DNA of 58,323 bases from Clostridia bacterium (GTDB lineage: Bacteria; Bacillota; Clostridia; Peptostreptococcales; JAAYPU01), in the NCBI GenBank assembly GCA_016278615.1, contig JADQBM010000113.1, positions 1 to 58,323 of the forward strand. The letters run 5' to 3'. This document shows, piece after piece, positions 17,746-51,372 of this stretch. The translations under genes were made by a program, and so were the position numbers. The notes beneath the pieces are model-generated. The model was not told where the DNA came from and did not search any database. It worked only from the letters and a program-made list of their open reading frames with translations. How positions within the stretch are numbered: the first letter of the stretch is position 1; the number at the start of each line of letters is the position of its first letter.

Positions 17746-20031
17746 ATGGCAGATAAAGTATTAGATTATAAAGATATTACAGGTATTTTTAAAAACAATT
17801 TAAAAATAGAAAATATGGTTAAATCAATTTCTTCAATATTTCTAAATGAAAGATTTTCAAGCAAGGTGGATTATGCACCATACTTTCAGAGACATTATGT
17901 TTGGGATGCAGATAAGGCTACATATTTTGTTGAGAGTATTTTCTTGGGTACAGAAATACCACCAATAGTTTTATTTGATAATGGGAACAAAAATGAAGTT
18001 ATTGATGGTCGCCAAAGGTATGAAACTATACTTAAATTTCTAAATAATGATCTGATATTAACTAATGAAGGTTTAAAGTCACTTAAATCTTTTTCTGGAA
18101 TGCGATATTGTGATTTGTCAGAGGATATTAGAGATGAATTTGAGGACACAAAACTAAGAATATTGCAGTGTAGTGTTGTTAATGAACCGTCGCTTGACGA
18201 ATACAAAGAAGATAAAATAAAAAAAGAAATATTTAGAAGATATAATTCCGGAATTATTCCGTTGAAAAAAGAAGAAATACAACGAGCAGAATTTATTCAT
18301 GATGATGTAACAAAAGCATTTTCTAATTTGTTTAATGGAAACCCTAACTTGTTTAAAAACTCGTGTATTCTTTTCTTGTCAAAACGACAATCTAAATCAC
18401 AAAAAAGAGATAAGACAAATATAATGTTGTCAAAAATTCGAGTCTTAATTACTTTGCCATTAATTCCTATTAATAACTATGCAAATAGCAGTACTAAGAG
18501 TGATAATATTGGCATCTATTATAGGACAAAAGTAACTTCAATGAAAATTGAATTATTGATACAAGAATATGAGGAGATAATTACTATTCTACTTGAGCTG
18601 AAAAGTATTTTAGTAAATAAAAAAGAATTATTAGCAGATAATATATTATTTTTTGAATCATGTTACTGGATACTTACAATAATCAGACGTGATTTTAATG
18701 AAGATTTCAATAATATTGATTTACATAAATTAGTAGATTTTATGATTGAAAAAGAAGATATTGATACAATTTTTGATTCTACTGGTAGTCATTATCATAA
18801 AGCTATAAAAGATAGATATACATTTATTTCAAATTATTTTGTGGAGAAATCACAATTGAATTTAGACATTTATTTTAAGAATTCAACTGAGTTTATATCT
18901 ACTACTAATATAAAGAGTAATCAAATAAATGAAATAAAAAAACTTAAGCTTAATAAACCTGAACCAACATCAATGACCATAGAAGATATATGTAAAGATA
19001 TAAATAAATCACGTTTTATGATTCGCCCTGATTATCAAAGATCTGAAGTAACAAATACAATTAAGTCTTCATATTTATTAGAAAGTATAATGCTTGGTAT
19101 GAAGATTCCACCTATATTTGTGTATAAACGTAATGACAAGGTTTATGAAGTGGTTGATGGACAGCAAAGATTACTTTCTATTATTGGATTTCTCGGTAAA
19201 GAATATCTTAATGAAAATAACAAAAAAGAAATATCAAATAAACATAAATTTAAATTAAAAAAATTAAAAATTTTAAAAGAACTAAATGAAAAAGATAGTG
19301 ATAACATAGATCCAAAATATAAAAATAAATTATTAGATTTTCAACTTGAAGTCATTGAAATAGATGCTACACTTAATCCATCATTTGAAAGTATAGACTT
19401 ATTTTTAAGATTAAATACTAAACCTTATCCAATAGGTGAGAATACATTTGAAATGTGGAACTCATATGTTGATAAAAAATTAATCTTGTCAATAAGAAAA
19501 CTTGCAGAAGAATACTCTGATAAAATTTTTAGAGCTAATAATACCAGAATGGCGAATGAAGAACTTATAGCATCGTTAGCATATATTGATTATAAAAAAA
19601 GAATTAGTAATAGTAATACAAAAAACATACTGAATATTTATGTTAAAGCAAACAGGATAAATGCAAGAATTAAAAGTAAATCAGATATAACCAAAGTATT
19701 AAGTGAAATTACACAAGATGATATTAATCCATTTATTGATTCAATCAATAATGTAATTATCTTCATTGATAAAATTAATAAATTAATATCAGATGACTAT
19801 ACATTATTATATAAAATTTTTGATCCTATAAATCAACGAAAAACAAGTCGTACTAATCAAAATTTTTATATGTTTTGGTTGATCTTAGGAAAATTTTCAA
19901 TGGCTCAATTAGAAGAGTCTCGTAATGAAATAATTCATAAAATATCTGATTTATATCAACTAATGCAAAAATATCCTCAAGATAAAACGGTAGATGATTT
20001 GATGGAGAAAATTGAAAATATCAACAACTAG
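17746..20031 (+). CDS. Tandem DUF262 protein (GmrSD/SspE-like nucleotide-binding domains, no HNH seen)
   Basis: A 761-residue protein with two DUF262 domains. The first (~residues 30-130) has YFQRHYVWDADKAT, GTEIPPIVLF and VIDGRQRYETI. The second (~420-530) has IRPDYQRSEVT, GMKIPPIFVY and VVDGQQRLLSI. The DGQR/DGRQR motifs are the ParB-like NTP-binding signature shared with GmrS/GmrD-type IV restriction enzymes and SspE. I see no DUF1524 HNH motif after either domain, so it may be a regulator or NTPase whose effector is the neighbouring protein. Two fused DUF262 units in one chain is unusual. The ATG at 17746 follows GAGGGG. Confidence 0.85.
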   Translation: MADKVLDYKDITGIFKNNLKIENMVKSISSIFLNERFSSKVDYAPYFQRHYVWDADKATYFVESIFLGTEIPPIVLFDNGNKNEVIDGRQRYETILKFLNNDLILTNEGLKSLKSFSGMRYCDLSEDIRDEFEDTKLRILQCSVVNEPSLDEYKEDKIKKEIFRRYNSGIIPLKKEEIQRAEFIHDDVTKAFSNLFNGNPNLFKNSCILFLSKRQSKSQKRDKTNIMLSKIRVLITLPLIPINNYANSSTKSDNIGIYYRTKVTSMKIELLIQEYEEIITILLELKSILVNKKELLADNILFFESCYWILTIIRRDFNEDFNNIDLHKLVDFMIEKEDIDTIFDSTGSHYHKAIKDRYTFISNYFVEKSQLNLDIYFKNSTEFISTTNIKSNQINEIKKLKLNKPEPTSMTIEDICKDINKSRFMIRPDYQRSEVTNTIKSSYLLESIMLGMKIPPIFVYKRNDKVYEVVDGQQRLLSIIGFLGKEYLNENNKKEISNKHKFKLKKLKILKELNEKDSDNIDPKYKNKLLDFQLEVIEIDATLNPSFESIDLFLRLNTKPYPIGENTFEMWNSYVDKKLILSIRKLAEEYSDKIFRANNTRMANEELIASLAYIDYKKRISNSNTKNILNIYVKANRINARIKSKSDITKVLSEITQDDINPFIDSINNVIIFIDKINKLISDDYTLLYKIFDPINQRKTSRTNQNFYMFWLILGKFSMAQLEESRNEIIHKISDLYQLMQKYPQDKTVDDLMEKIENINN

Positions 20032-29381: not shown

Positions 29382-30056
29382 ATGAATCCTAAAATATTAA
29401 TCATAATTATTTCAATATGCATAGTGGCTATAGTTGTCGCTATGCTTTTTTTTAAGAAAGAAGAAAAGAAAAATAGCAAAATAAATCCAGAGAAAAAGAC
29501 GGCCAATGAATTTGTGAATGTTAAAGATATTAGAGATAAATTCTTATATACCTTAGATGGCAATGTTATTACTTATATTAAGATTCATTCTATAAGTATT
29601 GATTTACTTAGTGACCGTGAAAAAAGGCAGCTGTCAAGAACCTTAACTGCTGAACTTTCCAGTGAAAGAAAGATGTTTAAATTTCTTGCAGTTTCAAGAC
29701 CTGTAGATATTTCACCATTGATTAATGAGTATATAGAAATCTTGTCAAATATAAATAATCAAAAACAAAAAGAACTATTGAGAAATGAAATGATGGTGAT
29801 GAGCAATTATGCTTTATCTGGTGAAGTGGTTGAAAGACAATTTTATATTATGCTTTGGGAAAAAATCGAATCAGATATTGAACAGGATTTAGCAAAGAGA
29901 GCTAATGAGATGGTATCAAAGTTTGAGAACAGTAACATTCGATGTGAAATATTAAAACAGCAAGAAATTGTTAGACTTTGCAATCTTATTAATAATCCTA
30001 CTTATACGTATATTGAGGATGTTGAGTTTGCAAGAACTTTTCCGATATTGAATTAA
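29382..30056 (+). CDS. Membrane-anchored protein of the transfer region (TraC-like domain)
   Basis: A 224-residue protein with one N-terminal helix (ILIIIISICIVAIVVAMLFF) and a cytoplasmic domain containing FLYTLDGNVITYIKI and REKRQLSRTLTAELSSERKMFKFLAVSRPVDI. The latter resembles the N-terminal part of VirB4/TraC ATPases, so it could be a detached N-terminal partner of the VirB4 at 34328, from which it is now separated by the cassette array. A strong terminator-like hairpin (29419-29453) sits in the membrane-helix codons. Confidence 0.7.
   Translation: MNPKILIIIISICIVAIVVAMLFFKKEEKKNSKINPEKKTANEFVNVKDIRDKFLYTLDGNVITYIKIHSISIDLLSDREKRQLSRTLTAELSSERKMFKFLAVSRPVDISPLINEYIEILSNINNQKQKELLRNEMMVMSNYALSGEVVERQFYIMLWEKIESDIEQDLAKRANEMVSKFENSNIRCEILKQQEIVRLCNLINNPTYTYIEDVEFARTFPILN
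29419..29453 (+). terminator. Intragenic terminator-like hairpin
   Basis: GCATAGTG (29419-29426) pairs with CGCTATGC (29438-29445) over 8 bp including one G-U pair, and is followed by eight T (29446-29453). It lies 37 bases after the start codon of the host gene. Confidence 0.6.
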
Positions 30057-30494
30057 AAATGCAGATATTTATTATTAGAAATATTGGAAATGTATGGTAT
30101 TATATAAATGGAGATTAAGTAGATATTTTGTCTAATTGTGGAAAGTTAAATATGATTTATATAAGGCGGATAATCAGAAATTAAATTATGTATTGATTAA
30201 GTAAATAAAAGTTGCGGCAACAAATAAGAAAATTGAGGCGAAAAGAATAAGGTCAAAAAAGGGGTAGGGGAACTATCAAATTTCGATGAGTATAGAGTGA
30301 AATATATGTGCAAATAGTCAGCGGTCCCTTTACATTACTAGATCATTACAGATAATAACCCCTTTAGACTCATTATAAAGTTATTGCCGACATAAGTCGC
30401 AAACACCTTAAAAAAGGAAGTATTGACGACATACGTCGTGAATATATAAGATAGACAAAACTTTTCCTATTAAAAAGAAAGAGAGAGAGTGTTT
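30057..30494 (+). other. Non-coding region at the left edge of the cassette array
   Basis: No gene is seen. TGGTATTAT (30095-30103) is an extended -10 candidate. Two similar small hairpins follow: CGAC/GTCG with loop ATAA near 30390-30405, and ACGAC/GTCGT with loop ATAC at about 30426-30439. The second is followed by AATATATAAGATAGAC (30441-30456), which aligns with the right arms of the attC-like repeats at 31113 and 32607. It is interpreted as a shortened left-end copy. Confidence 0.45.
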
Positions 30495-31046
30495 ATGGGG
30501 CAATCAAATTTAAATCCATTCTTAAGAGAAGGTTTAGATATCATTTTTGTAGGATTAAACCCAGCAAAAGGATCTAGTGATAAAAGACATTATTTTTCCG
30601 TTAATCAAGCATTTTGGAATCAATTATTTGATAGTGGACTAATTTCTGCAAGGGTTGATAAGAATTATGCTGATGAAGTCGTATTCGGAACAAGTGAAAT
30701 CAATTATTGTAATTGGTCATATGGTATTACAGATTTAATTACATCTATTGCTGAGAGTAATAGTAATTTAATTTCAGTTAGTGAAGATGATTGCAATAGA
30801 TTATCTGATTTGATATGTGCATTTAAACCTAGAGCTGTAATTTTATTGCACCAAAAGGTAGTTAAACATTTTTTAGAATCACTTAAGATGGATGTACCTA
30901 AAGCTAATGTTGGTCAGTTAGGTAATTTGATTGATGGCTGCAACTCTATGTTTTTTGCAATTGGGTTTCCTCATGGTAATACAATACCGTCTAAAGATAA
31001 AGTGGATAATTATATTCAAGTTAAAGAATTTCTTTTGAATAGATAA
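30495..31046 (+). CDS. Uracil-DNA glycosylase superfamily protein (cassette 1)
   Basis: A 183-residue protein of the UDG superfamily, mismatch-specific/SMUG-like branch. Visible are motif A (FVGLNPAKGSS), an aromatic segment NQAFWNQLFDSGL and the late motif GFPHGNTIPSKDKVDNY. It would excise a damaged or modified base; the substrate cannot be inferred. I prefer the ATG at 30495 to the GTG at 30489; both have only a weak GAGAG site. UDG-superfamily enzymes have been linked to phage defence as well as repair. It is the first gene of the cassette array. Confidence 0.78.
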   Translation: MGQSNLNPFLREGLDIIFVGLNPAKGSSDKRHYFSVNQAFWNQLFDSGLISARVDKNYADEVVFGTSEINYCNWSYGITDLITSIAESNSNLISVSEDDCNRLSDLICAFKPRAVILLHQKVVKHFLESLKMDVPKANVGQLGNLIDGCNSMFFAIGFPHGNTIPSKDKVDNYIQVKEFLLNR

Positions 31047-31068
31047 ATAGAGGTCCGCGGTAAAAGCT

Positions 31069-31142
31069 TCGTCTAACAGCGTATTTCCAACACAACGGAT
31101 AGCGGTAGAATTGTTGCGTCGTAAATATGTGGAACGTTATGA
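31069..31142 (+). repeat. attC-like imperfect inverted repeat B (after cassette 1)
   Basis: TCGTCTAAC (31069-31077) faces GTTATGA (31136-31142). An internal imperfect stem pairs 31081-31096 with 31113-31128 (12 of 16 positions Watson-Crick, further G-U pairs), loop 31097-31112. The arrangement of core, imperfect stem with unpaired bases and core is that of integron attC sites. Confidence 0.5.
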
Positions 31143-31166
31143 TAAATTCAATTTAGGAGGTATGAC

Positions 31167-32453
31167 ATGCTAGAAAGTTTAGAAAAGTGTCCTAGTAAAA
31201 CAGAGGAATTAAGTGCAGAGCTAATTGAGAAGTACGTATTGCCGCTTTTTAGTGGGGCAGAACTATCGGGCTTTAAAGAATCTAATAGAAGAGAAAAATG
31301 TGTATCTTCTGGGAATGGGTATAAATATCTGTTTATTAAGTTGAAAAGCAATGATTCATATAGGCTAAAAGTTATGCGAGCTCAGCCATTTTTAAAAGAC
31401 GACAAAAAACTACTTGAGCTAATAATAGACGAGTTTGCCAAAATATCTGATCTGGATATTGAAAATATATATAAGGAAAAGCTTTATCTTAATGCATTGG
31501 AAATAGCTATTAGTAAAAATCTTGCAGATGGTTTTAGCGAAGTCCTGTCAAGAATTATTAATAAACTATCAAATTGGTCGGAACGTACTTATGAAGGTGG
31601 AAGAGTTTCGTTTGGGTTTATTGTTGATTTTGAGAAAGAAAGTACTGAATCTCCAAAAAGGAAAAAATTTTTAGACTTTGATGAGATTCTTGGAGATGAT
31701 TTTTCAGCAGTATTAACAGATGGAGTACTATCATGGATGGTTTTTGATAAGAATGGAGTTGCACTTAGTCATGAAGTTCACCAGCCACTAACTGATCAGG
31801 ATATTCTATGTCCTTTACGATTTGGAAGTTTGGCAAACACTACGTCTGAGAAAAGGGTTGGTATTGTTTTGCTTTCGAATGGTGAAATTCTTTTGATCAA
31901 AAATAAGGAATTGAAGTTAGCTAAGAGAAGAGGTGCATGGAGAAGTTTTCATCACGAAGCCACAATGAAGCAAATGACCGCTAACTCGAGTTATACCAAC
32001 GATGACATAATCAAAGCGATTTATTTGACTTCATTGGATGTTTCCTTTGGAAGGAGTGGAGGGTGTATTTGTTATACTAGAAAATCTTCCGAAACAAAAC
32101 TATATCAAGCAAAAGTTATAGACGATAAAGATTTATTGGTAAGAGAAGAAAGCATCAAATCAACTACGATTTGGAAAATTGTAGATGGGCAGAAATTTAA
32201 CCATTTAGAAAGAAAGTTAAGACAAGAAATTATGGGCATTGATGGAGCAACTATAATTGATCACGAAGGAAAGGTTATAACTTCTGGTTCAATAATAAGC
32301 ATACCTTCTGGAAGTACAGGCGGAGGTCGTCTCGCAGCAACAAAAGCACTATCTAAGTATGGAATAGCAATTAAAATATCGGAAGACGGAATGATACAGG
32401 GGTTCCGTCATCCGGAACATAAGGATGTCATCAAGTTATTCTCCATAGCCTAA
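31167..32453 (+). CDS. Protein with two DAC/DisA_N-like domains, candidate nucleotide cyclase (cassette 2)
   Basis: A 428-residue protein. The C-terminal part (~residues 345-428) reads like a diadenylate cyclase (DAC/DisA_N) domain: GIDGATIIDHEGKVITSG keeps the DGA motif, then GSTGGGRLAATKALSKYG replaces the usual RHR-containing segment, then IKISEDGMI. A related but more degenerate copy precedes it (~190-270: LTDGVLSWMVFDKNG, RFGSLANTTSEKRVGIVLLS). The missing RHR makes catalysis uncertain; it could bind nucleotides instead. The N-terminal 180 residues are unrecognised. AGGAGG precedes the ATG. The assignment comes from motif reading only. Confidence 0.55.
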   Translation: MLESLEKCPSKTEELSAELIEKYVLPLFSGAELSGFKESNRREKCVSSGNGYKYLFIKLKSNDSYRLKVMRAQPFLKDDKKLLELIIDEFAKISDLDIENIYKEKLYLNALEIAISKNLADGFSEVLSRIINKLSNWSERTYEGGRVSFGFIVDFEKESTESPKRKKFLDFDEILGDDFSAVLTDGVLSWMVFDKNGVALSHEVHQPLTDQDILCPLRFGSLANTTSEKRVGIVLLSNGEILLIKNKELKLAKRRGAWRSFHHEATMKQMTANSSYTNDDIIKAIYLTSLDVSFGRSGGCICYTRKSSETKLYQAKVIDDKDLLVREESIKSTTIWKIVDGQKFNHLERKLRQEIMGIDGATIIDHEGKVITSGSIISIPSGSTGGGRLAATKALSKYGIAIKISEDGMIQGFRHPEHKDVIKLFSIA

Positions 32454-32463
32454 ATTGAACATC

Positions 32464-32632
32464 TCATAACACGAGTATTCACGTAAAGGTGCGGTAGGGA
32501 TAGTTTTTAAGGTCACGCCGCACCACATGCCCCCAGTCACAAGACTTGCAATTAGGGATGTTAAATAGGATGAGCAAGTTTGCGTCAGCCATAGAACGGA
32601 CGGGCACGTCGGGAATACCGGGAACGTTAGAC
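32464..32632 (+). repeat. attC-like repeat C (after cassette 2), long form
   Basis: TCATAAC (32464-32470) and GTTAGAC (32626-32632) bound the element. GTATTCACG (32475-32483) pairs with CGGGAATAC (32610-32618) with one mismatch. Between them are two further perfect hairpins: GGTGCGG/CCGCACC (32488-32494, 32518-32524) and ACTTGC/GCAAGT (32544-32549, 32574-32579). At ~170 bases it resembles long attC variants. Confidence 0.5.
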
Positions 32633-32676
32633 AAAAAGCAACTATTGTTGCAAGAAGGAGGAAGGAGGAACATTAT

Positions 32677-34020
32677 TTGGTAAAGAAAGCAATTGAAAAG
32701 TTAAATACAAGAATAGATAGACTTATTAAAGATGGAGAATTTGAGAGGGATAAAAATAAAATCAAATACAAAAACAAACTTATGTTTTCATTTAATAATA
32801 AATATATATGGTATAACAATTGGAGATATTATCCAGATAGAATTGAATCAATTGTGAAAGACACTTTGAAAGTTACAATATTCATGGAAGGTAAAAACTT
32901 TGAGATACTTGGTAGCAATATTGTTAATCCGCCCAAATCAGCTAAAATGATTGCAAAAACATTTGAGAAACTTACGGGCATTGGAATTAATCATATTTCT
33001 ATTGGTGTACAAAAGGATAACTTGAGAGATAGTACATTAAAAATTACTAAAAAAACATATGATATGCTTAATGAAATTCTTAAAGAAGAAGGTAATGATA
33101 AGGCTGTTCGAATTAATAATAGAGTGTCTCCGATTATTAGGAATATATTTAATGTACATACTGAGCATGAAAACTCAAACAGAAATTACTCTTTATTACT
33201 GAAAGAAATAATTGAAAGTGGTAATTATACGCAAGAAGATGTAGTTGCATTTGCAGATAAAATTAGCAGTGGTTATAAAAATACGATTGTAATTGAAAAG
33301 CAGATTAAAAAGCAAACTCAGTGGTTGATTGATACTATGCAGTTAATTGTAGATGAGGCAGTTCTGGATAAATCGAAAGCTCAAGAATTAGGAAGTATCC
33401 ATTTTATGTACACTAAAAATAGTATTAGCGGACCAGAAGAACTGATGGAAAAAATTTTAACAGATTACGGTAGAAATATTTTTTTTGGATCTCCATTTTT
33501 GATAAATACAAATAAGTACGTTACAAGTAGAAAGCAAATATCGAACTCCCAATTTGATATTTTACTTGTAAATCAATTTAATGACCTGGAAGTAGTAGAA
33601 CTTAAAAGACCAGATAAACCAGTATTAAGTTATGATCCGAGTAGAGGTAAATTTTACGCTTCTAGAGACTTATCTATAGCTATATCTCAAGCCGAACGAT
33701 ATTTATCTGCGGTTATTAGAGATAATGATGACGAATATTTGATATGCGGAAAAAAAATTAGAGAATATTTGAATGATATTATTGGTGGTACTACTAGCAT
33801 TGAGATTGTTAGACCAACAGCATTGATAATTTTAGGAAGTCACCAGACTGTTACAGAACCTTATGATAAGCTAAACTCAAAAATAAGAGAAAAGGTTGCT
33901 GAAGAAGAATATATTCTAAATGGATTATTAGCATATAAAGAGTTGAAGAATGCTCTGAAAAATATTCAAATAATGACTTATTCAGAATTAATTGAAAATG
34001 CAAGATTAAGGTTGTCATAA
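32677..34020 (+). CDS. Shedu-type (SduA, DUF4263) defence nuclease (cassette 3)
   Basis: A 447-residue protein whose C-terminal ~180 residues show the Shedu/DUF4263 nuclease core: QFDILLVNQFNDLEVVELKRP supplies the D and ExK of a PD-(D/E)xK active site, followed by SQAERYLSAVIRD. The N-terminal ~250 residues are a variable region, as is usual in Shedu proteins. Single-gene Shedu systems protect against phages by DNA cleavage. The TTG at 32677 follows GGAGGAAGGAGG. It is the last gene of the cassette array. Confidence 0.8.
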   Translation: MVKKAIEKLNTRIDRLIKDGEFERDKNKIKYKNKLMFSFNNKYIWYNNWRYYPDRIESIVKDTLKVTIFMEGKNFEILGSNIVNPPKSAKMIAKTFEKLTGIGINHISIGVQKDNLRDSTLKITKKTYDMLNEILKEEGNDKAVRINNRVSPIIRNIFNVHTEHENSNRNYSLLLKEIIESGNYTQEDVVAFADKISSGYKNTIVIEKQIKKQTQWLIDTMQLIVDEAVLDKSKAQELGSIHFMYTKNSISGPEELMEKILTDYGRNIFFGSPFLINTNKYVTSRKQISNSQFDILLVNQFNDLEVVELKRPDKPVLSYDPSRGKFYASRDLSIAISQAERYLSAVIRDNDDEYLICGKKIREYLNDIIGGTTSIEIVRPTALIILGSHQTVTEPYDKLNSKIREKVAEEEYILNGLLAYKELKNALKNIQIMTYSELIENARLRLS

Positions 34021-34327
34021 TTGCTCATCGTCTAACAGCTTATTTTCACACCAGAGCTGCCATGATGCTTTGAAGAAAATGATAGATAATGAACGCGTAA
34101 TACAGGATCTGACAACTTGAAACTTTGTTTAGCTGATTTCGTCGACAAATAGATAATTTTCTAGATTTGGAGAATTATATTATTTAGAGAAATAAGAGGG
34201 GTTGCGATGAAGTGGGATTGAAGGGATGTTAATGCTTGTTAAACAAAAATTATTTAGTTTATAATACAAAGAACTGTGAACCGTAGTGAAAACTGCGGTT
34301 TTTTTAAGTTGAAAAGGAGGATTTTAT
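34021..34327 (+). other. Right edge of cassette array (repeat D) and virB4 leader
   Basis: TCGTCTAAC (34028-34036) and the following bases repeat the left arm of repeat B. The right arm is degenerate or lost; a weak match (CGTCGACAAATA) lies near 34140-34152. A promoter, TTGTTA and TATAAT separated by about 18 bases, ends near 34265. It is followed at once by a terminator-like hairpin, AACCGTAG (34279-34286) with CTGCGGTT (34293-34300) and seven T (34299-34305), just before the virB4 ribosome binding site. Confidence 0.5.
34279..34305 (+). terminator. Terminator-like hairpin in the virB4 leader
   Basis: An 8-bp stem including one G-U pair, with loop TGAAAA, runs directly into seven T. A promoter ends about 15 bases upstream, so transcripts starting there would meet this structure first. 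Confidence 0.7.
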
Positions 34328-36157
34328 ATGAGAAAAAGGCAAGACCAAAGTTCAGATATCAACAATACATTGTTAAACATTATCACACCTATGGGTTTGG
34401 AAATTAAAAGAAATAGCCTTGTTATTGGGGAAAATTCCGGAAAAATCTATGGGATGGTAAAATATCCTCAAAAGGTAGATTATGGTTGGTTATGCAAACT
34501 AACTAATATACCGGGAACGATTGTCAGTGTTACGTTTAAACCCATTGATCATAGTACATTTATTGAAAGCCTTTCCAAAAGTGTTATTCAAAATCGTGGG
34601 GCATCAGAAAGTGCAAGAGATCCTTTGATCCAGAAAAGAGCAGAGAGAGCTGCTATTGATGGAGAAAGAATAATGGTGCAGATTGATCAGCATGGAGAAA
34701 CAGTAGGACTTATGAGCATCAATATTATGCCAATTGCAAAAGATGAAGAAGCTCTTCAGAAGTTAAGCGGAAAAACGGAAAGCATCTGTGCAATGATTAA
34801 ATGTAAACCCAGGTTGTTGGCAAATCTTCAAGAAGAAGCATTCAAAATGATTTCTCCTTTTTATACAAGTGAAGAAAGTATTGCACAGATCTGTGAAAGA
34901 ATTGTTCCGTTGTCTACTTTTGTAGGTGGCTTTCCATATTCAAGTTCCGGTTACAATGACGGTACCGGTTATTTTTTTGGAAGGGATTTAGGTGGTGGAT
35001 TAGTTATATTAGATCCATGGAAGAGAGGTAACGATCGAACCAATACCAACATTGTTATTATGGGGGTAGCTGGAGTTGGTAAATCTACTGCTGTCAAACA
35101 TATAGCTTTATCAGAATACATGAAAGGAACAAAGATCATCTTTATAGATCCAGAAAGGGAGTATAAAGAACTCTGTGAGGCTTTAAATGGAGATTGGATC
35201 AATGCAGGTGGTGGATCAAATGGTAGAATTAATCCATTGCAGATTAGACCGACACCTACAGATGAAAATGATGAAGTATACAGAGATGAAGGGCATGGAA
35301 TGGGTGATATGGCTCTCTATATAAAAAATGTTGAGATATTCTTCAATCTCTATCTTCCATCTTTAACGGATATTCAAAGAGCAATACTAAAGGATACACT
35401 TATTGAGCTATATCATAATTTTAATATTACATGGGATACGGATATAACAAAACTTAATAGTAAGGATTTCCCAGTGTTTAAGGATTTATATGATCTGATT
35501 ATAAAGAAGGCTGAAGAAAAAGAGAAATTAAGAAAAGAAGTAGAACAAAATGTATATTCTGATTTAGCTTTGCTATTAAAGGATATCGCACTTGGATCTG
35601 ACAGCTTTCTTTGGAATGGATATAGTACTATTCAGACAAATACAAGATGTGTTTGTTTAGACACACATGATCTTCAAAATACTTCAGATAACATTAAAAG
35701 AACTCAATACTTTAATCTTCTGACTTGGTGTTGGCAGCAAATGAGTAAAGATAGAAATGAAAGAGTTTTATTAATTTGTGATGAAGCCTATCTGATGATT
35801 GATTCAAATGTGCCTCAAAGTTTAGTGTTTCTCAGAAATGTAGAAAAGAGAGCAAGAAAGTATGAAGCTGGAATTGCGATTATAAGCCATTCTGTAGTAG
35901 ACTTCTTAGATCCTAATATCAAGATGTATGGTCAAGCTCTTTTAGATATTCCATGCTTCAAAATTCTAATGGGATGTGATGGTAAAAATCTAATTGAAAC
36001 TAAGGAACTTTACAATCTTACAGATGCTGAAGAAGAATTGTTAGCAAGCAAGAAAAGGGGTAATGCTCTTGTCATGATTGGCTCTAAAAGGTTGCATGTT
36101 ATCTTTGAGATCCCGGAATATAAGTTTGAGTATATGGGTAAGGCTGGGGGGAGGTAA
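34328..36157 (+). CDS. virB4: VirB4-type conjugation ATPase
   Basis: A 609-residue VirB4 ATPase that energises the T4SS. Walker A is MGVAGVGKSTAVKH (residues ~242-255), Walker B is VLLICDEAYLMID (~472-484), and the KRARKYEAGIAIISHS segment is typical. It belongs to the CD1110-like group of clostridial ICEs. AAAGGAGG precedes the ATG. It lies 14 kb from prgI, its usual immediate neighbour, because Tad-like and cassette genes lie between. Confidence 0.93.
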   Translation: MRKRQDQSSDINNTLLNIITPMGLEIKRNSLVIGENSGKIYGMVKYPQKVDYGWLCKLTNIPGTIVSVTFKPIDHSTFIESLSKSVIQNRGASESARDPLIQKRAERAAIDGERIMVQIDQHGETVGLMSINIMPIAKDEEALQKLSGKTESICAMIKCKPRLLANLQEEAFKMISPFYTSEESIAQICERIVPLSTFVGGFPYSSSGYNDGTGYFFGRDLGGGLVILDPWKRGNDRTNTNIVIMGVAGVGKSTAVKHIALSEYMKGTKIIFIDPEREYKELCEALNGDWINAGGGSNGRINPLQIRPTPTDENDEVYRDEGHGMGDMALYIKNVEIFFNLYLPSLTDIQRAILKDTLIELYHNFNITWDTDITKLNSKDFPVFKDLYDLIIKKAEEKEKLRKEVEQNVYSDLALLLKDIALGSDSFLWNGYSTIQTNTRCVCLDTHDLQNTSDNIKRTQYFNLLTWCWQQMSKDRNERVLLICDEAYLMIDSNVPQSLVFLRNVEKRARKYEAGIAIISHSVVDFLDPNIKMYGQALLDIPCFKILMGCDGKNLIETKELYNLTDAEEELLASKKRGNALVMIGSKRLHVIFEIPEYKFEYMGKAGGR

Positions 36158-40579: not shown

Positions 40580-40843
40580 ATGACCTTTGATGAAATTCTT
40601 AAAAAAATCCGCAAGGAACTTAATATAACTCAGGAACAGCTTGCCCGTGAGTTAAACGTCAGCTTTTCCACTCTAAATCGTTGGGAAAACAATCGAAACA
40701 CACCAAGCAAGCTTGCACGAATGAGGCTTGCTGAATACTGTACTAAGAAAGGCATTTCCTCGGATATTATCTCCGAGCTAGAGCGCGCTCAATATACTAT
40801 CAAAGGAACAGGAGTAATAAATTATGATGATAACAACCAGTAA
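40580..40843 (+). CDS. XRE-family regulator of the restriction-modification gene
   Basis: An 87-residue XRE/Cro helix-turn-helix protein: TQEQLARELNVSFSTLNRWE is a canonical HTH. It overlaps the following restriction-modification gene by 20 bases, so it is likely a controller protein timing restriction against methylation. TGGAGG precedes the ATG. Candidate operators lie at 40519-40546. Confidence 0.88.
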   Translation: MTFDEILKKIRKELNITQEQLARELNVSFSTLNRWENNRNTPSKLARMRLAEYCTKKGISSDIISELERAQYTIKGTGVINYDDNNQ

Positions 40844-43800
40844 CTTCAAAGAAGTACTAAAACATATTGGCTTCGAACAGCTTAAAGGTAAGGATAAAGA
40901 TATTTGGCTTAAGTCGTACCCGGCATGTGAACTTCGGGTTGACTTTAAAAGCAGCTTACTAATTTATCCTGAAGATAAAGGGTTTATCGTCAATGAGCGG
41001 CAGACCTGTAATTTTAGTGCGCTTGAAAACTTTGTTGTATTCGAGTGTGTCGACCGCTTATTTTCTAAAGGATATAAACCGGAACATATAGAGTTAGAAC
41101 CGAAGTGGAAACTCGGTCATGGTGCAAGCGGTGGCAGAGCCGATATTCTCGTCAAAGATAACAACGCTAATGCACTACTCATCATAGAGTGCAAGACTTG
41201 GGGCGGTGAATTTGAAGCTGAATGGAAGAACATGAACCTTAATGGCGGACAGCTATTTAGCTATGCCCAACAGATTAAAAGTACTCAATTTTTGTGTTTA
41301 TATACTGCAGGCTACAATGACGAAGTGACCTTATACAATAATCATATCATCACACTTAACGATAATAATGAGTATTTAAAAACCCTCAAAGAGCCTTTAG
41401 TGTTTGCAGATGCGACTGATGTTCAGACACTCTATAAGGCATGGTATGTCACCTATAATCATGAATATGAAACTACAGGGATATTTGAGGATACTCACCC
41501 AGCCTACGAAATCGGCAAGGCAAAACGCACCGCTTCTGATCTGCAAGACATCAATCATGATGATATACAGAAGAAGTATCATGGATTTGCGACAATTCTT
41601 CGCCAGCACAATGTATCAGGACGTGAAAACGCTTTTGATAAACTTGTTAATTTATTTCTCGCAAAAATAGTTGATGAGATGCAAAATCCGGAAGAATTGA
41701 TGTTTTCTTGGCGTGGTGTAGCATTCGATAACTATTTCGACCTTCAAGACCGCATACAGAGGCTTTACCGTGACGGAATGCAAAAATTCCTTAATGAAGA
41801 AGTAACTTACATTGATAACGAGGATATTAAAAAAGCGTTTCGGCTTTTCAAAAATGACCCAGATGCAACACGTGACCAGATAGAGGAATATTTTCGCCAA
41901 CTGAAATTTTACACTAACAACGACTTTGCGTTCCTCGATGTACATAACCAGCATCTTTTTTTACAAAATGCGGTTATATTGTTAAAAATCGTGCGGATGA
42001 TTCAAGATATTAAGCTAAAAACTGAGGAGCAGAATCAATTTCTCGGTGACTTGTTTGAAGGATTCCTCGACCAAGGTATAAAACAGAGCGAAGGGCAGTT
42101 TTTCACTCCTACACCAATTGTAAAGTTCCTTGTATCCTCGCTACCACTTAAGACGCTTATTGAAGATAGCGTTGAACCATTGAATGTTATTGACTATGCT
42201 TGCGGCGCAGGGCATTTTCTAAACGAGTATGCCACTCAAATACGCGATTTTGTATCTGGTGAAAATCTGTCTGATTATTATGGACGAATTGTTGGAATTG
42301 AGAAGGAGTACCGTCTTTCAAAAGTAGCGAAAGTATCAGCATTTATGTACGGACAAGACGAGATACAAATCGTATATGCTGATGCACTTGCTGAGAATCC
42401 AATTATTCATAATGGTACATATAATTTGCTTATTTCAAACCCGCCCTACAGCGTCAAAGGATTTCTTGAAACGCTCACACCTGAAGAACGTGCTACATTT
42501 GAGATATTCAAAGTAATTGACAGTAAAAGTATCTACTCAAACAACTCAATTGAGGTATTTTTTGTTGAGAGAGCAAAACAATTGCTTGCTCCAGGTGGTG
42601 TTGCGGCGATAATTCTTCCGTATTCGCTCCTATCCAACAGTGGAGCGGTGTACACCAAGGCTCGAGAGACAATTTTACAGTATTTTGATATCGTGGCAAT
42701 CACTGAGTTTGGAAGTGGAACGTTCGGCAAAACGGGTACGAATACTATCACATTATTTTTGCGCCGCAAAGAAGAAAACCCTGCCCTCGCAGAGCATTAC
42801 CACAACCGCGTTAATGCATGGTTCAATGGAGATTTTGAGAAGGACGGGATATTTGTTGATTCTGATTTGCTGGAGGCTTACTGTCAACACATTGGCTACG
42901 ACATAGATGACTATAAAGAATTGCTATGTTCTATACCCAGTGATGAGTTGCTTGATATGGATGAGTTCAAGACGTATCTCACTGCTTTTGATAATCTTGC
43001 AGAAACAAAAAAACGCAAAAAACAAAAAACGTTTAAAGCATTAAAAGCTGAAGAGCAACAAGCAGAATTAATGAAACGCTTTACATCATACATCCGTGAA
43101 ATAGAAAAGGACAAGTTGTATTATTTTTTGCTCGCGTATAGCAATCCCCAAAACGTAGTTGTTGTAAAATCACCCTCTGGCACAAATGAAAGTAAGCTTT
43201 TTCTTGGATATGAGTGGAGTACCCGTAAAGGTTCGGAGGGTATAAAATACCTTGGGACTGCTACAAGTGATGATAACGATGACGAGACGCTTTCTCGACT
43301 AAAGGGTATTAAGAGTATACGGACACCTCTATTCAACCCTTCTGACCTTGCAGACATAAGCAAAATCAACACAATTATACGAGAAAATTTTAATGGCATA
43401 ACTCAGGTTGAGAGCGAATTTGTGCAGCATTACCGTCTTGTTGATATGCTCGACTTTTCAGGTATCAAATTCGAAAAACAGATTTCTCTTTCAGCAGTAA
43501 AAATGAATGATATGGAGATAATTGAAAACTTTGATAGGTATCGGTTGAGTGATAAAAATCTATTTTCGCTCTCTATCGGAAAGCGTATTCTTAACACGCA
43601 GCTTGTACCTGACGGTGAGGTGCCCGTTTACAGCGCTAATGTATTCGAACCATTTGGGCGGATTAATGAACGACTAATAACAGACTTTAGCATTCCATCC
43701 ATACTATGGGGAGTTGATGGAGATTGGCAAGTAAAATATCTTCCTGCTAATCAAGAGTTTTATCCTACTGACCATTGCGGCGTGTTGCGTGTGTTAACGG

Positions 43801-44066
43801 ATAAGGTTCACCCACGTTGTTTAGCATGGGTATTGGACAATGCAGGTAAAAAGTACGGTTTCACGCGAACGCTCCGTGCCTCTATGCAAAGAATAGGACA
43901 ATTAATCGTGCAGTTACCTAAAATTGATATACAGCTCGAAATTGTTGCTGCTTGGGAAGTCGTAGATACAGAGTATGAAAGAACACGTATGAGCGATGAT
44001 GAGTATCGTCAGCGGATAGAGCAGTTGTTTAATGAGATTTCCGGCAAAGTGGAACGGCCAAAGTGA
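40824..44066 (+). CDS. One-polypeptide restriction-modification enzyme (N6-adenine MTase with nuclease and specificity regions)
   Basis: A 1080-residue type IIG/type I-like fusion. Residues ~100-125 hold a PD-(D/E)xK core (RADILVKD, then IIECK). Residues ~455-545 hold the gamma-class N6-adenine methyltransferase motifs: VIDYACGAGHF (motif I) and SNPPYSVKG (motif IV). The C-terminal ~250 residues look like a single target recognition domain of HsdS type (YRLSDKNLFSLSIGKRIL, then GWQVKYLP-like and DHCGVLRV). One chain would cleave and methylate. A decayed copy of part of the recognition domain follows the gene (44070-44300). Confidence 0.88.
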   Translation: MMITTSNFKEVLKHIGFEQLKGKDKDIWLKSYPACELRVDFKSSLLIYPEDKGFIVNERQTCNFSALENFVVFECVDRLFSKGYKPEHIELEPKWKLGHGASGGRADILVKDNNANALLIIECKTWGGEFEAEWKNMNLNGGQLFSYAQQIKSTQFLCLYTAGYNDEVTLYNNHIITLNDNNEYLKTLKEPLVFADATDVQTLYKAWYVTYNHEYETTGIFEDTHPAYEIGKAKRTASDLQDINHDDIQKKYHGFATILRQHNVSGRENAFDKLVNLFLAKIVDEMQNPEELMFSWRGVAFDNYFDLQDRIQRLYRDGMQKFLNEEVTYIDNEDIKKAFRLFKNDPDATRDQIEEYFRQLKFYTNNDFAFLDVHNQHLFLQNAVILLKIVRMIQDIKLKTEEQNQFLGDLFEGFLDQGIKQSEGQFFTPTPIVKFLVSSLPLKTLIEDSVEPLNVIDYACGAGHFLNEYATQIRDFVSGENLSDYYGRIVGIEKEYRLSKVAKVSAFMYGQDEIQIVYADALAENPIIHNGTYNLLISNPPYSVKGFLETLTPEERATFEIFKVIDSKSIYSNNSIEVFFVERAKQLLAPGGVAAIILPYSLLSNSGAVYTKARETILQYFDIVAITEFGSGTFGKTGTNTITLFLRRKEENPALAEHYHNRVNAWFNGDFEKDGIFVDSDLLEAYCQHIGYDIDDYKELLCSIPSDELLDMDEFKTYLTAFDNLAETKKRKKQKTFKALKAEEQQAELMKRFTSYIREIEKDKLYYFLLAYSNPQNVVVVKSPSGTNESKLFLGYEWSTRKGSEGIKYLGTATSDDNDDETLSRLKGIKSIRTPLFNPSDLADISKINTIIRENFNGITQVESEFVQHYRLVDMLDFSGIKFEKQISLSAVKMNDMEIIENFDRYRLSDKNLFSLSIGKRILNTQLVPDGEVPVYSANVFEPFGRINERLITDFSIPSILWGVDGDWQVKYLPANQEFYPTDHCGVLRVLTDKVHPRCLAWVLDNAGKKYGFTRTLRASMQRIGQLIVQLPKIDIQLEIVAAWEVVDTEYERTRMSDDEYRQRIEQLFNEISGKVERPK

Positions 44067-44069
44067 TAA

Positions 44070-44300
44070 GCGGTTTCGCTGTTTCAATCGGAAAACGCAT
44101 ACTTGATACTCAGCTTTTCCCTGATGGTGAGTTAGCGCAAACGTATTTAACCCGTTCGGTTATATTAACAAACGCCTTATTGCTGATTTCAATATCCATG
44201 CCGGTATAGAGAGTCAACAGATCATTGCGGACTTTTACGTGTACTGATCTATGATACAGTTGCCCCTATTGTAAAGAATAGCCTGACTCTCATCATTCTA
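44070..44300 (+). pseudogene. Decayed fragment of a second target recognition domain
   Basis: Translation in shifting frames gives SIGKRILDTQLFPDGEL, then GYINKRLIADFNI, then DHCGLLRVL. These align in order with SIGKRILNTQLVPDGEV, GRINERLITDFSI and DHCGVLRVL of the intact upstream gene. The fragment is frameshifted with internal deletions, so it is not expressed as a domain. It suggests past duplication or replacement of the specificity region. Confidence 0.75.
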
Positions 44301-44795
44301 AAAGTAGAGGTGTATATGTGCCTATAAAGAAAGACTGCACAAAAGGTTTTATCCTTCGGTGCTGTCTTTACTTTCGAGTCTCCGCTTGAAGAGAGTCGGT
44401 CAAAAATTAACTTGTTTTCGTAAATCCCTTAGTTGAACTCCCTTTCAAGCGGCATCTTTTTTGACCTTTCGAGGTATCCGTTGAACTATGATTCGGATTA
44501 ATTGTAAGAATCAAAAAAATATAAATGAGAAAACAAAAATCGATATGTCACTAACATATTATATATTCATAACAAAATAAAGAAGAATAGAGATAAAAAC
44601 TCTGATAATAATTGACCAAGGTAAAACCTATCGAAAAAGGAAGAAGCTAAGAGGCTTGTTTTTTTTATTTTATATTAAAGTTAGGCAACGCATACAAAAA
44701 TTATATATTCTTTTTTATATTGGCCTAAATTAATACAATAAAGCAACCATAAGCTCGGGAAATGCAGAATTATCTACAAATTTACCCTTGAATTA
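44301..44795 (+). other. Non-coding region with hairpin, pseudoknot-capable repeats and terminator
   Basis: No gene is seen. An 11-bp stem with one mismatch (AAAGACTGCAC with GTGCTGTCTTT, about 44329-44369) could terminate the upstream operon. CCGCTTGAA (44382-44390) pairs with TTCAAGCGG (44444-44452), and GGTCAAAAA (44398-44406) pairs with TTTTTGACC (44458-44466). The order is interleaved, as in an H-type pseudoknot. TTTCGAG...CCG...TTGAA occurs twice (from ~44372 and ~44467). AAGC/GCTT with eight T near 44646-44668 is a weak terminator. The remainder is AT-rich. Confidence 0.45.
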
Positions 44796-44804
44796 TGGTA
44801 TAAT
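44796..44804 (+). promoter_or_regulatory. Extended -10 promoter of the four-gene operon
   Basis: TGGTATAAT (44796-44804), in the context TTATGGTATAATAT, lies 80 bases before the first gene of the 44884-51372 operon. Confidence 0.55.
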
Positions 44805-44883
44805 ATAGCAAATTATTATTTTAAAGAGCGTTATTAATACAGGAGAAATAAAAAAGATAACTGGTCGCAGGGGGATAAAGATT

Positions 44884-45069
44884 ATGGATGAACAGACTAT
44901 TCAAGAAAAAATCAAAACAACCTTCATTAATGTAGTATCTGAATCCTTGAAATTTTCAGATGAGGAAGTTAACGAGATTGCGATAACAATATCATCGACT
45001 CAAAAGTCTGATAAGTTGGCGGAGAGTTTGTTAAAAAGTATTGGAGGTACTGCCGATGAAGATACTTAA
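44884..45069 (+). CDS. Small helical protein, first gene of the Rad50-like operon
   Basis: A 61-residue acidic, mostly helical protein that I do not recognise. It begins with ATG at 44884 after a GGGGGA site and overlaps the ATPase start by 14 bases, so translation is coupled. It may be a subunit or adaptor of the Rad50-like ATPase; nothing in its sequence identifies a catalytic role. Confidence 0.65.
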   Translation: MDEQTIQEKIKTTFINVVSESLKFSDEEVNEIAITISSTQKSDKLAESLLKSIGGTADEDT

Positions 45070-47485
45070 CCTACATATCCAAAAATTCCGCGGAATCGTG
45101 GATCTCAAATTAAATCTCAATGGAGAAAACGCCGTTATCTTTGGCCCAAATGGCGTGGGTAAAAGCGCTGTTGTTGATGCGGTGGATTTCCTTTTGCGTG
45201 GCGAAGTTTCGAGGTTAACCGGAGAAGGTACTGGCGACGTGTCAACAGCAAAGCACGGTCCCCACATTGGCAATCAACCTGAAGAAGCAAAAATTACGGC
45301 TACAATTCAGAGCATAACCGGTAAGACGTTTACTGTTGAACGTACAGTCGCTCAAAAAGACAGGGTAACAATCGATCCCGCGTACTCCTCCGATTTTAAC
45401 GATATGGTTGCCTATGCTCAAAGTGGGGCTCATTGCCTTGCAAGACGTGAATTGTTGCGCTATATATTAACGACTCCTGCAACGAGATCACAACAAATTC
45501 AAATGTTACTTGATATTGCTGATACAAAAACCGTTCGCGACGCATTTACAAAACTTAAAAAGACTGCGGCAAGTAACTTAAAAGATGCGATAGATTCGAT
45601 TAAACGTCATTCCACCGATTTTCGTACAAAGGTTAACGTAAACGCCGACGATCAGTTACTTGGAAATATAAATTCGCTACGAGCTGTCTTAGGAGGCTGT
45701 CCCCTTGCGTCTCTTGATGAAAGCTCTTTTACGAATGGCTTATTATATAGCGATACGAAGGAAAATACCGAGATAGCCAGTTGCATCCGCAACTTAGAAG
45801 AACTTGATAAGTATATACCAACGCTACGACCTGCACTTCAGGAAAAATTGCAAAATGTGCAGGATATTATACAAAAGGTTAAAAATGAATATACATCAAT
45901 TGAAAATATAAATTATATTTCGCTTATAAAATCAGGGCTTGCACTACTTGACGGTACAGGCCGGTGTCCGCTATGTTTGCATGAATGGGCGTCCGAAGCC
46001 GAATTGCGCCAAATATTACAGGAACGAAAAGAAAAGAGTGAATCTCTATCCACTCTTCTTGATACATATCAAAATTCAGTTACAACTTTGTTAAATGAAA
46101 TTTCAGCATACAGATCTAAAATCAATACGCTTCCTCAACAGCTAACAAAGTGGGACAATGGTTGCGCTGCTGAATTAGAAAATGAACTAAAGTCAATTGC
46201 AGCCGTATCTTTTCAAGATAATAATGCATATAAGAATTTCAGCAAAGTCCAGGAACTCATTATCGCTATCATAAATCAGAATTCGGATATACTTTTAGAC
46301 CTTATTCAAAAGCAACTGGCGGTTTTACGTCCTTTAATTGATGAAAACAGTAAAATAAAAAGCGATGCATGGCAGGCTCTTAATGCGGCGAATGAGTTAT
46401 TTACAAAAATTGGAGAGCTTAATAAGAAGTTGCCGACTATGAAGTTGGCGGCTGAGAAAGCTGCATTTTTGCTTGAAACGTATGACAATTCTCAAGCAAT
46501 TGTACTGAATGAATTATTTGCTTCTATAAGTGACCGATTCACAGAATATTATAAAGCGATGCATATTGACGATGAGAAGGATTTCTCGGCTGTATTGAAT
46601 AATGATGGCGCAGCCGTTAATATGAGCGTTGATTTTTATGGGCAAGGTCAATTCCCGCCAATGGCGTTTCACAGCGAGGGACATCAGGACAGTATGGGCA
46701 TTGCCTTGTTTTTTGCTCTGATGGAAAAGCTGACAACATCAGAATCAGGATTGGTAGTTTTGGACGACGTCGTGATGTCTGTAGATATTGAGCACAGAAA
46801 GAACTTCTGCAGACTGCTAAAAAGGTTTTTCCCTGAACGGCAATTTATTATTACTACGCATGATACGGTATGGGCAAAAAATCTCGTTAATGAAGGCGTT
46901 GTTGAACGCAAAAACAGTATTCAATTTTTGTATTGGAATGTTACGGAAGGCCCCGTAATGGTAGTTGGACAAGATGTATGGAATACGAGTCGCGCGAAGG
47001 CTGATATTGATCTTCACGGAGCATCCGCTTTCTTCAGGAGAGAAATGGAATGCTTCTTTGAAAACATCTGTGATAAATTGCACGCACGCGTTCGTTATAA
47101 TAACGTTCATAAATGGGATTACGGTCAATATATGAACGCAGCTTATAATGAACTACAAAATCTGATAAAAAAAGCGGAGAAGCAAGCACGAGATTTTAAG
47201 AACACAGAGGCGCTTGATCAACTCGGCTCTCTTTCCAACACATTAAAGACTCAAATCGCAGCAGTTACGGCAGACAACTGGGTAACAAATGCGCTTATAC
47301 ACTACAATCCAGCTTATGAAATATCAAAAACAGAGTTTTTAGCAGCGGTGGACGCATTGGAACAATTCTGCCATAGCTTTGAATGTTCTAAATGTAACGC
47401 CACAATAAAAGCTACATATACCGGTGAGAACCCGATTGCGTTAATGTGCAAATGCGGTAGTTATGCATATCCTCTCAAACAATAA
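45056..47485 (+). CDS. Rad50/SMC-like ABC ATPase with zinc hook and C-terminal zinc ribbon
   Basis: An 809-residue ABC-type ATPase. It has an N-terminal LHIQKFRGI strand and Walker A (FGPNGVGKSAVVD), then coiled-coil arms on either side of a Rad50-type hook (CPLC, residue ~302). The C-lobe has a signature-like segment (SEGHQDSMGIALF), Walker B with D-loop (LVVLDDVVMSVD) and H-loop (IITTHD). The last ~40 residues form a zinc ribbon (CSKC...CKCG). The ATG at 45056 follows GGAGG. Such ATPases sense or process DNA ends and act in several defence systems. Here it is operonic with an HD-GHKL protein and a PD-(D/E)xK protein. Confidence 0.85.
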   Translation: MKILNLHIQKFRGIVDLKLNLNGENAVIFGPNGVGKSAVVDAVDFLLRGEVSRLTGEGTGDVSTAKHGPHIGNQPEEAKITATIQSITGKTFTVERTVAQKDRVTIDPAYSSDFNDMVAYAQSGAHCLARRELLRYILTTPATRSQQIQMLLDIADTKTVRDAFTKLKKTAASNLKDAIDSIKRHSTDFRTKVNVNADDQLLGNINSLRAVLGGCPLASLDESSFTNGLLYSDTKENTEIASCIRNLEELDKYIPTLRPALQEKLQNVQDIIQKVKNEYTSIENINYISLIKSGLALLDGTGRCPLCLHEWASEAELRQILQERKEKSESLSTLLDTYQNSVTTLLNEISAYRSKINTLPQQLTKWDNGCAAELENELKSIAAVSFQDNNAYKNFSKVQELIIAIINQNSDILLDLIQKQLAVLRPLIDENSKIKSDAWQALNAANELFTKIGELNKKLPTMKLAAEKAAFLLETYDNSQAIVLNELFASISDRFTEYYKAMHIDDEKDFSAVLNNDGAAVNMSVDFYGQGQFPPMAFHSEGHQDSMGIALFFALMEKLTTSESGLVVLDDVVMSVDIEHRKNFCRLLKRFFPERQFIITTHDTVWAKNLVNEGVVERKNSIQFLYWNVTEGPVMVVGQDVWNTSRAKADIDLHGASAFFRREMECFFENICDKLHARVRYNNVHKWDYGQYMNAAYNELQNLIKKAEKQARDFKNTEALDQLGSLSNTLKTQIAAVTADNWVTNALIHYNPAYEISKTEFLAAVDALEQFCHSFECSKCNATIKATYTGENPIALMCKCGSYAYPLKQ

Positions 47486-47531
47486 AATCAGAGGATGTTA
47501 CCAAATCAAATGAAACTAGAAGGAGCCTGGC

Positions 47532-50000: not shown

Positions 50001-50013
50001 GGGAGATAAGTTC

Positions 50014-51372
50014 ATGTTTAACAATAACAGACACCTTAATATATTTGAGCATTACACACAAAAAGGGTCGTTGCCAATTGAAAATAATGTGTCCAGAGGG
50101 CTGGCAATACTATTAAATCAAAACAGCTTAGTCCTTGACAGATTAATTGATTATATAAATGCCAAATGCTCGGACAAAAAATCAACCTGCTCTGTTCCGA
50201 AGCCTCAAAAGCTAAGCGACAAGGAGATCGGGATTCAACAGCAGATAACAAAAATAGTACAAAGCTATCCCAACCCTCAGAATATTATCGGCATGACATT
50301 GACTACATCATCTCCCATCAGCATGGTCGAGAATAAGTACGATGACAATAACGGTCTGATAACAGATATCGTGATAAGCTGCAAGGATACGCTTGTTATT
50401 ATTGAGGTTAAAAGGAATGCTAATGATGCCAGGCTCCAATTAAAACAGCAGGTGAAAAGCATCGCTGCAGAGGTTGTCAGACAAGGAGGAAATCTTCCGG
50501 ATACCGTACTGCTTGATGGTACATGGGAGGATATAATTTCAATCCTGCAGGATGTTTATAATATTTCTGGGAGCAATGAGGACAGCGTTTTAGGACATTA
50601 CCTTAACCATTTAGAAAATCATTATCAGCAGTGGTTCCCCATATCGTTACTGACCGACATTCTGATTGATCGCGAAAATGAGTCAGGCATTGATAAACGG
50701 ATATTAAGTCTCATCAAAAATTGTTGTGAAAATGAAAGCGATGCGGAGAAATACTCCGGCAGGTACATAATTCCGCTAGATTATGACTTTTGTACCGAAG
50801 CCCAGCTCAGCATGGATTATGAATTAAAGAGATTGATGATCACAATTTGGAGTGGTGATACAAAATGGCAAGGCTATTGCCTGTTCAATAAAACGACAAA
50901 CGACTTATCATGGGTTTATGAAAATTCATTGATTATAGATGGGCTGAAGCTTGATTTATTGACAGAGCCTTATTTACGGCTTGCTCATTTTCAATCCACT
51001 ATCATCGCTGAGTATTTTGATAAAGCATATTACCAAAAGCACTTTGGAGTTAGGAACGATAAGTGTATAGACTTGTATAACGATATTACGAGGGACTGGA
51101 AAAAGCCTGATTGGCCTGAATTAAAGGCCTTATTAAGGAATAAGTATAAAGGCTTGATAGACATGAGCAGCTTTGATACTGATTTTCAGAGTAATTTTGA
51201 AAACTCAAACAGGAGCTATGCGCATGTTTCATTTGGTTATGAAACGACTGTTTATCTGCCAATGGACGTAATAAGCAAATATGAAAAAAACAATTCTACA
51301 TTAAGAAAAAATGATAAATTGGCCGGTTTCATATCTAAGGTTATTGACCAGTTGACGAAGAAAATAGTGTAG
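50014..51372 (+). CDS. PD-(D/E)xK nuclease-like protein, last gene of the operon
   Basis: A 452-residue protein with a central nuclease-like core: NGLITDIVISCKD followed by LVIIEVKRN gives the D and ExK of the PD-(D/E)xK superfamily (residues ~113-135). The remainder is unrecognised. AGGGAG precedes the ATG, 13 bases after the HD-GHKL stop. It is the most likely effector of the operon. The terminator at 51427-51451 closes the unit. Confidence 0.78.
   Translation: MFNNNRHLNIFEHYTQKGSLPIENNVSRGLAILLNQNSLVLDRLIDYINAKCSDKKSTCSVPKPQKLSDKEIGIQQQITKIVQSYPNPQNIIGMTLTTSSPISMVENKYDDNNGLITDIVISCKDTLVIIEVKRNANDARLQLKQQVKSIAAEVVRQGGNLPDTVLLDGTWEDIISILQDVYNISGSNEDSVLGHYLNHLENHYQQWFPISLLTDILIDRENESGIDKRILSLIKNCCENESDAEKYSGRYIIPLDYDFCTEAQLSMDYELKRLMITIWSGDTKWQGYCLFNKTTNDLSWVYENSLIIDGLKLDLLTEPYLRLAHFQSTIIAEYFDKAYYQKHFGVRNDKCIDLYNDITRDWKKPDWPELKALLRNKYKGLIDMSSFDTDFQSNFENSNRSYAHVSFGYETTVYLPMDVISKYEKNNSTLRKNDKLAGFISKVIDQLTKKIV

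Follow-up and report, generated by a model that had tools for sequence, protein, structure and literature searches.

How did three unrelated single genes come to lie between two transfer genes of an ICE in a Clostridia bacterium, and which enzyme could have put them there? The window (58,323 nucleotides, the whole stretch of DNA analysed here) is the entire contig C55 of a draft genome of 128 contigs, 3.5 Mb and 99% completeness. A first-pass annotation had proposed integron-like cassettes inside a clostridial ICE, an interpretation that is supported by the present analysis. The explanation we favor, and consider likely as a whole, is that an integron-type platform, consisting of an attI-like leader and three single-gene cassettes, would have lodged between trsD and virB4 of the ICE, a site-specific recombinase having joined the cassettes by acting at the G^TT core of attI and of the hairpin attC-like sites. 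The most likely candidate would be an array-associated tyrosine recombinase (hereinafter designated HInt, a name given here), whose gene in relatives lies immediately 5' of attI and has the same direction as the cassettes.

The insertion is flanked on the left by a trsD-like transfer gene (29382..30056; NF041427 TrsD, 40.1 bits; NF045975 positions 80-285) and on the right by a virB4-like transfer ATPase gene (34328..36157; NF045975 positions 289-879, 363 bits), both on the forward strand, as are all features of the array. We compared this setting with 48 related ICE loci taken from public Clostridia and Paenibacillus genomes, in which the trsD-virB4 gap is mostly 14-70 bp and is otherwise filled by other genes or cargo; in the nearest relative (89% identical) it measures 59 bp. 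A search for attC-like sites returned none in any of the 48 loci, and the array is therefore an insertion rather than a fixed component of this family of ICEs. The trsD-virB4 junction is a place where the family also accepts other cargo, and the window array is one insertion there. No similar DNA was found in phage and plasmid collections, and matches to the segment 34035-34330 in two other genomes (G001 and G123) were dismissed, as they looked like chance similarity.

In some relatives (loci L016-L063) the trsD-virB4 cargo is defence-like, including an AAA ATPase pair (L033) and a 1269-aa P-loop-like protein (L032), and locus L013 (G000:C53) is a relic of a related ICE in which the beginning of virB4 survives, preceded by an AraC-type regulator as cargo. 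Inside the ICE, the window also carries a gene for a 1137-aa protein with S-layer homology domains (8835-12248). Other features of the window are a GmrSD-like gene (17746-20031), a pemK RNA motif (53166-53244; RF02913, 55.8 bits) and a defence cluster (40824-51372), whose genes include one for a type IIG restriction enzyme-methyltransferase (1428 bits) and one for an LmuB/PtuA-like ATPase. At 53598-55158, a gene for a large serine recombinase precedes and overlaps a 200-aa ORF in a different frame; the two may be a single frameshifted gene.

The array opens with an attI-like leader (30330..30449) containing two direct repeats (TATTGCCGACATAAGTCGCAAACA / TATTGACGACATACGTCGTGAATA), which recurs elsewhere in the genome and aligns with the sequence just 3' of HInt genes in relatives; because this leader belongs to the array, the array begins further left than position 30422, where the first-pass annotation had started it. 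The leader runs into the core shared by attI and cassette 1 (GATAGAC, 30450..30456), in which GTT has apparently mutated to GAT. Cassette 1 (30451..31136), limited by this core and by attC-like site B, encodes a 185-aa uracil-DNA-glycosylase/Mug-like protein (30489..31046; PF03167, 26.3 bits against a cut-off of 24.3). Site B (31071..31142) shares 77% identity with site E and 73% with site F of contig C125 and scores 51.8 bits with R2, a covariance model described below. Cassette 2 (31137..32626), with ends GTTATGA/TCATAAC, carries an ORF for a 428-aa protein of unknown family (31167..32453), which has no relatives among viral contigs and a distant homologue in G004, whose gene stops 40 bp before an attC-like site. 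Site C (32464..32632) has a long variable loop; it scores 33.8 bits with the covariance model R1 but was among the six sites from which R1 was built, and R2 does not report it at E<=1. Cassette 3 (32627..34152, right end approximate; ends GTTAGAC/GTCTAAC) encodes a 447-aa Shedu SduA-like protein (32677..34020; PF14082, 43.8 bits; PADLOC SduA) and closes with site D (34030..34157), which folds weakly and has a degenerate 3' arm, leaving its 3' end uncertain (~34150).

The description of three single genes separated by imperfect inverted repeats thus held, with B, C and the 5' arm of D present as described. So did the shared arms, which had been given as 18/23 and 20/25 identical; we find that B and C share a 3' arm (18/23) and B and D a 5' arm (19/21). 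The uracil-DNA-glycosylase-like and Shedu assignments are supported by the matches above, but the label 'double-DAC-like' for the cassette-2 gene rests on motif resemblance only, without support from Pfam, NCBIfam or PADLOC. The claim that outer heptamers pair within a cassette rather than within a repeat also held: the match is exact for cassette 2 (GTTATGA at 31136-31142, TCATAAC at 32464-32470) and cassette 3 (GTTAGAC at 32626-32632, GTCTAAC at 34030-34036), and 6/7 for cassette 1 (GATAGAC at 30450-30456, GTCTAAC at 31071-31077).

Three cassettes alone are weak evidence for such a pattern, and the test was therefore extended to the further arrays in this genome. Copies of the leader occur outside the window on contigs C122, C71 and C28 (86-88% identity) and C125 (76%), making five places in the genome when the window is counted. 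The C122 leader is apparently empty. On C125, to which a pattern scan had pointed, the leader is 76% identical to window positions 30330-30447, stops 2 bp short of the first cassette core and is followed by two B-like sites; this array adjoins a tRNA-Lys gene. The first cassette on C71 carries a VOC-fold gene and is bounded by GTTATACGA / TCGTATAAC. Searching with R1 revealed a further array on C114, with about 17 attC-like sites on one strand, each between ORFs. An R1 match on C126 was discarded since it sits inside an adenylate kinase gene, and a fixed 3'-arm pattern had no match in viral contigs. At locus L064 (3304-3789) a cassette gene encodes a 161-aa protein of STARGG-like repeats.

Recombination at G^TT implies that the heptamer opening a cassette complements the one closing it. 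Opening and closing heptamers match exactly in 14 of the 26 cassettes in this genome, a number never reached in 100,000 random re-pairings of the ends (mean 1.19 exact matches, maximum 7), whereas the two heptamers within a single site match exactly in only 1/23. A cassette with the mutated opening core GATATGT has an equally mutated close, ACATATC. The sites in this genome were partly delimited by eye; in other genomes, where sites were called by the model, exact matches are seen in 18/32 neighbouring pairs, where 1.8 would be expected. It is very likely that these are integron-type cassettes whose boundaries were exchanged at the G^TT core, and the cassettes, their cores and the attI copies themselves are directly visible in the sequence. 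The rival that would have refuted the first-pass annotation, namely that the repeats act as gene-specific terminators or represent REP-like elements, without shared boundaries or any part in recombination, has in its favor that they are hairpins between genes. However, the heptamers match across genes and not within hairpins, which terminators do not predict, nor do they predict a common leader at five loci. With boundaries exchanged at the G^TT core both here and in other genomes, this alternative is contradicted and all but excluded.

To follow the system beyond this genome, we built the second covariance model, R2, from 19 sites and searched 394 genomes of the order at a threshold of E 1e-3. 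Matches were found in 26 genomes, i.e., this one and 25 others, often several on one strand. As a count of genomes with arrays this is a lower bound because locus L173 (G044) has an HInt gene, an attI and a matching first-cassette core yet no R2 match at E 1e-3. Two checks suggested by the first-pass annotation are therefore positive: repeats of the same type flank different single genes (on C114, C125, C28 and C71 and in the 25 other genomes), and a custom covariance model built from the repeats finds arrays in this genome and its relatives. A plain DNA search did not detect the leader of this genome in the rest of the order, so that its tie to the HInt loci rests on architecture and alignment only.

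The absence of an IntI-type integrase from the window, as claimed by the first-pass annotation, was confirmed and extends to the whole genome, none of whose contigs encodes a protein above the TIGR02249 cut-off. Across the order, a single genome in 394 passes; this sole canonical IntI lies, together with canonical attC, on a foreign-looking 4.5-kb contig of an 81%-complete MAG. One alternative is that the window array is an ordinary CALIN, with cassettes captured by a canonical IntI that has since been lost or lies in an assembly gap. The assembly is indeed a 128-contig draft, and CALINs are known from a few Firmicutes (PMC9024848); these resemble the present arrays in lacking IntI. But TIGR02249 is nearly absent from the order, the arrays accompany HInt, the integrase remnant beside an attI of this genome is HInt-like, and the site geometry is unlike that of canonical attC, which make a CALIN origin unlikely. 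The clostridial system further differs from a CALIN in having an attI and, in relatives, a candidate integrase in cis.

HInt was found near the arrays of five relatives (G122, G085, G060, G084 and G102), upstream of attI and the cassettes and co-oriented with them, and an intact HInt gene lies ~20 kb upstream of the array in G130. At E 1e-60 or better, HInt is present in 16/25 array genomes compared with 2/55 others (Fisher P 9e-9); this test is not corrected for phylogeny, and the 55 comparison genomes are assumed to be part of the R2 sample. At HInt loci, a conserved attI, with a GTTA core preceded by two repeats, lies about 75-125 bp (~90 bp) after the HInt stop codon. In 8/16 of these loci the reverse complement of the 8-bp attI core is found again 0.6-1.3 kb further on, as expected for the end of a first cassette, and the attI sites align with all five leaders of the present genome. 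The association of HInt with attI and with arrays is shown; the identity of the leader as an attI at the array head rests on sequence and position only. A similar placement, with attI immediately downstream of the integrase gene, has been reported for archaeal integrons (PMC9668308).

The remaining check, for a tyrosine recombinase in the same strain, is positive with a qualification: a linked enzyme exists that is not a canonical IntI, and this strain has only a remnant of it. No intact HInt was found in the genome and no integrase gene in the window; on C71, a 34-aa HInt-like remnant (56% identity, E 6e-4) ends ~30 bp before attI. We infer that HInt is likely to be the recombining enzyme, in the absence of recombination data and with the case for this strain resting on relatives and on those 34 residues. 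Because only this remnant remains beside one attI, the arrays of the strain would now be idle, and we consider it likely, again by inference, that they are immobile at present. Alternatively, HInt might be a bystander and cassette movement the work of XerC/XerD of the host or of some other resident recombinase. Proteins resembling XerC and XerD are present, and folded phage DNA in single-stranded form can serve as a Xer substrate (PMC4792948). However, Xer is expected in all genomes and so does not account for arrays that track HInt, nor does it account for an attI that follows the HInt stop codon; we regard this alternative as very unlikely.

If HInt is the enzyme, the sites it would act on resemble canonical attC in part. 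The clostridial sites carry R''/R' cores (RYYYAAC/GTTRRRY) with hairpin pairing, and covariation of the core-proximal stem is shown: 36 cells changed on both sides compared with 22.1 in shuffles, a value reached in 0/500. In 22/23 sites of this genome the bottom strand forms the better fold of the two, although the sign-test P value for this bias is only indicative because the sites are not independent, and in the best-paired sites the arms differ by A versus G, which pair as G.T on the bottom strand only. A mechanism acting on the folded bottom strand would fit these sites and is one toward which we lean slightly; it is inferred and only the folding bias supports it.

A marked difference concerns the extra 5'-arm bases (EHBs, L''). 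Canonical controls, an IntI array on a Thiodictyon plasmid and a G363 contig, were put through the same scan as the clostridial sites; 7/8 control sites have such bases, with spacers mostly 4-5 and 5-6, compared with 0/9 sites of this genome and G122, with spacers mostly 1 and 5. The clearest clostridial hairpins thus lack the canonical 5'-arm extrahelical bases, which is shown for the best-paired sites only, as the scan recovers no others (8 of ~17 on C114). When sites are aligned one by one, which gives a less clear picture for long sites, about 10/23 in this genome show some arm asymmetry, and a functional equivalent of extrahelical bases is therefore not excluded.

HInt is related to XerA and IntI. 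The 363-aa HInt of G122 passes the NF040815 model ('site-specific tyrosine recombinase/integron integrase', XerA; 231.2 bits, cut-off 220) but reaches only 221.5 bits, in two pieces, on TIGR02249 (cut-off 265). Membership in NF040815 implies neither attI nor cassettes. In the alignment, residues 186-241 of IntI4 (2a3v) have no counterpart in HInt, and the I2 insertion has left no trace in any of 17 aligned HInts; the absence of I2 is shown. The same 17 sequences share with IntI a C-terminal SPLDRL (SPLD-like) tail, and long forms carry an N-terminal HARP-like extension whose HARP match is below threshold.

The system therefore has in common with canonical integrons an attI, an integrase of the tyrosine family, RYYYAAC/GTTRRRY cores, single-gene cassettes whose heptamers match cassette-wise, and hairpin sites in which the bottom strand is the more stable. 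It differs in an HInt without I2 and, in long forms, with the HARP-like extension, in the placement of the HInt gene, which precedes attI in the same orientation, and in sites with spacers of mostly 1/5 rather than 4-5/5, the clearest of which have no extra 5'-arm bases. Published work describes I2 as required for cassette capture and as restricted to IntI (PMC4792948; PMC7790495), and Escudero et al. (PMC4792948) described a chicken-and-egg problem in which I2 and the attC extrahelical bases each seem useless alone. XerCD integration of the CTX phage also combines a folded single-stranded site without extrahelical bases with a recombinase without I2 (PMC4792948), but there the substrate is a phage genome and not single-gene cassettes.

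The lack of I2 could be ancestral or secondary. In the secondary-loss scenario, a rival account of origin rather than of mechanism, HInt derives from a canonical IntI that lost I2, after which the sites lost their extrahelical bases. The tail common to HInt and IntI favors it, and the tree does not resolve the question; against it, the insertion is traceless in the 17 HInts, and the XerA model gives HInt a slightly better score than TIGR02249 does. We think this scenario somewhat the weaker of the two, yet tree support for HInt versus IntI is low (56-60), so that ancestral absence and loss of I2 are indistinguishable and the choice between HInt as ancestral to IntI and HInt as a derivative that lost I2 remains undecided. 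A bolder reading, a clostridial integron lineage whose integrase lacks I2 and whose attC-like hairpins have no extrahelical bases in the 5' arm, could in our judgement equally well prove right or wrong; if true, it would be a living counterpart of the missing intermediate in IntI/attC co-evolution.

An integron-like system apparently lacking both I2 and extrahelical bases makes the chicken-and-egg question testable, and an I2-less cassette system could help explain how integrons evolved. HInt is also a candidate integrase for Firmicutes arrays that would otherwise be scored as integrase-less. In the IntegronFinder 2.0 survey, the sole complete Firmicutes integron was that of Limnochorda pilosa, alongside a few CALINs (PMC9024848). 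We found no description of clostridial integrons in the open-access literature searched; one elsewhere is not excluded. In the window, integron-style cassettes, including a Shedu-like gene, ride on a conjugative element. HInt-like recombinases were also seen among plasmid matches (H31-H55), nearly full length and with ~40% identity on Chryseobacterium plasmids, and as a 'TnpF' 52% identical to HInt on Acinetobacter plasmids.
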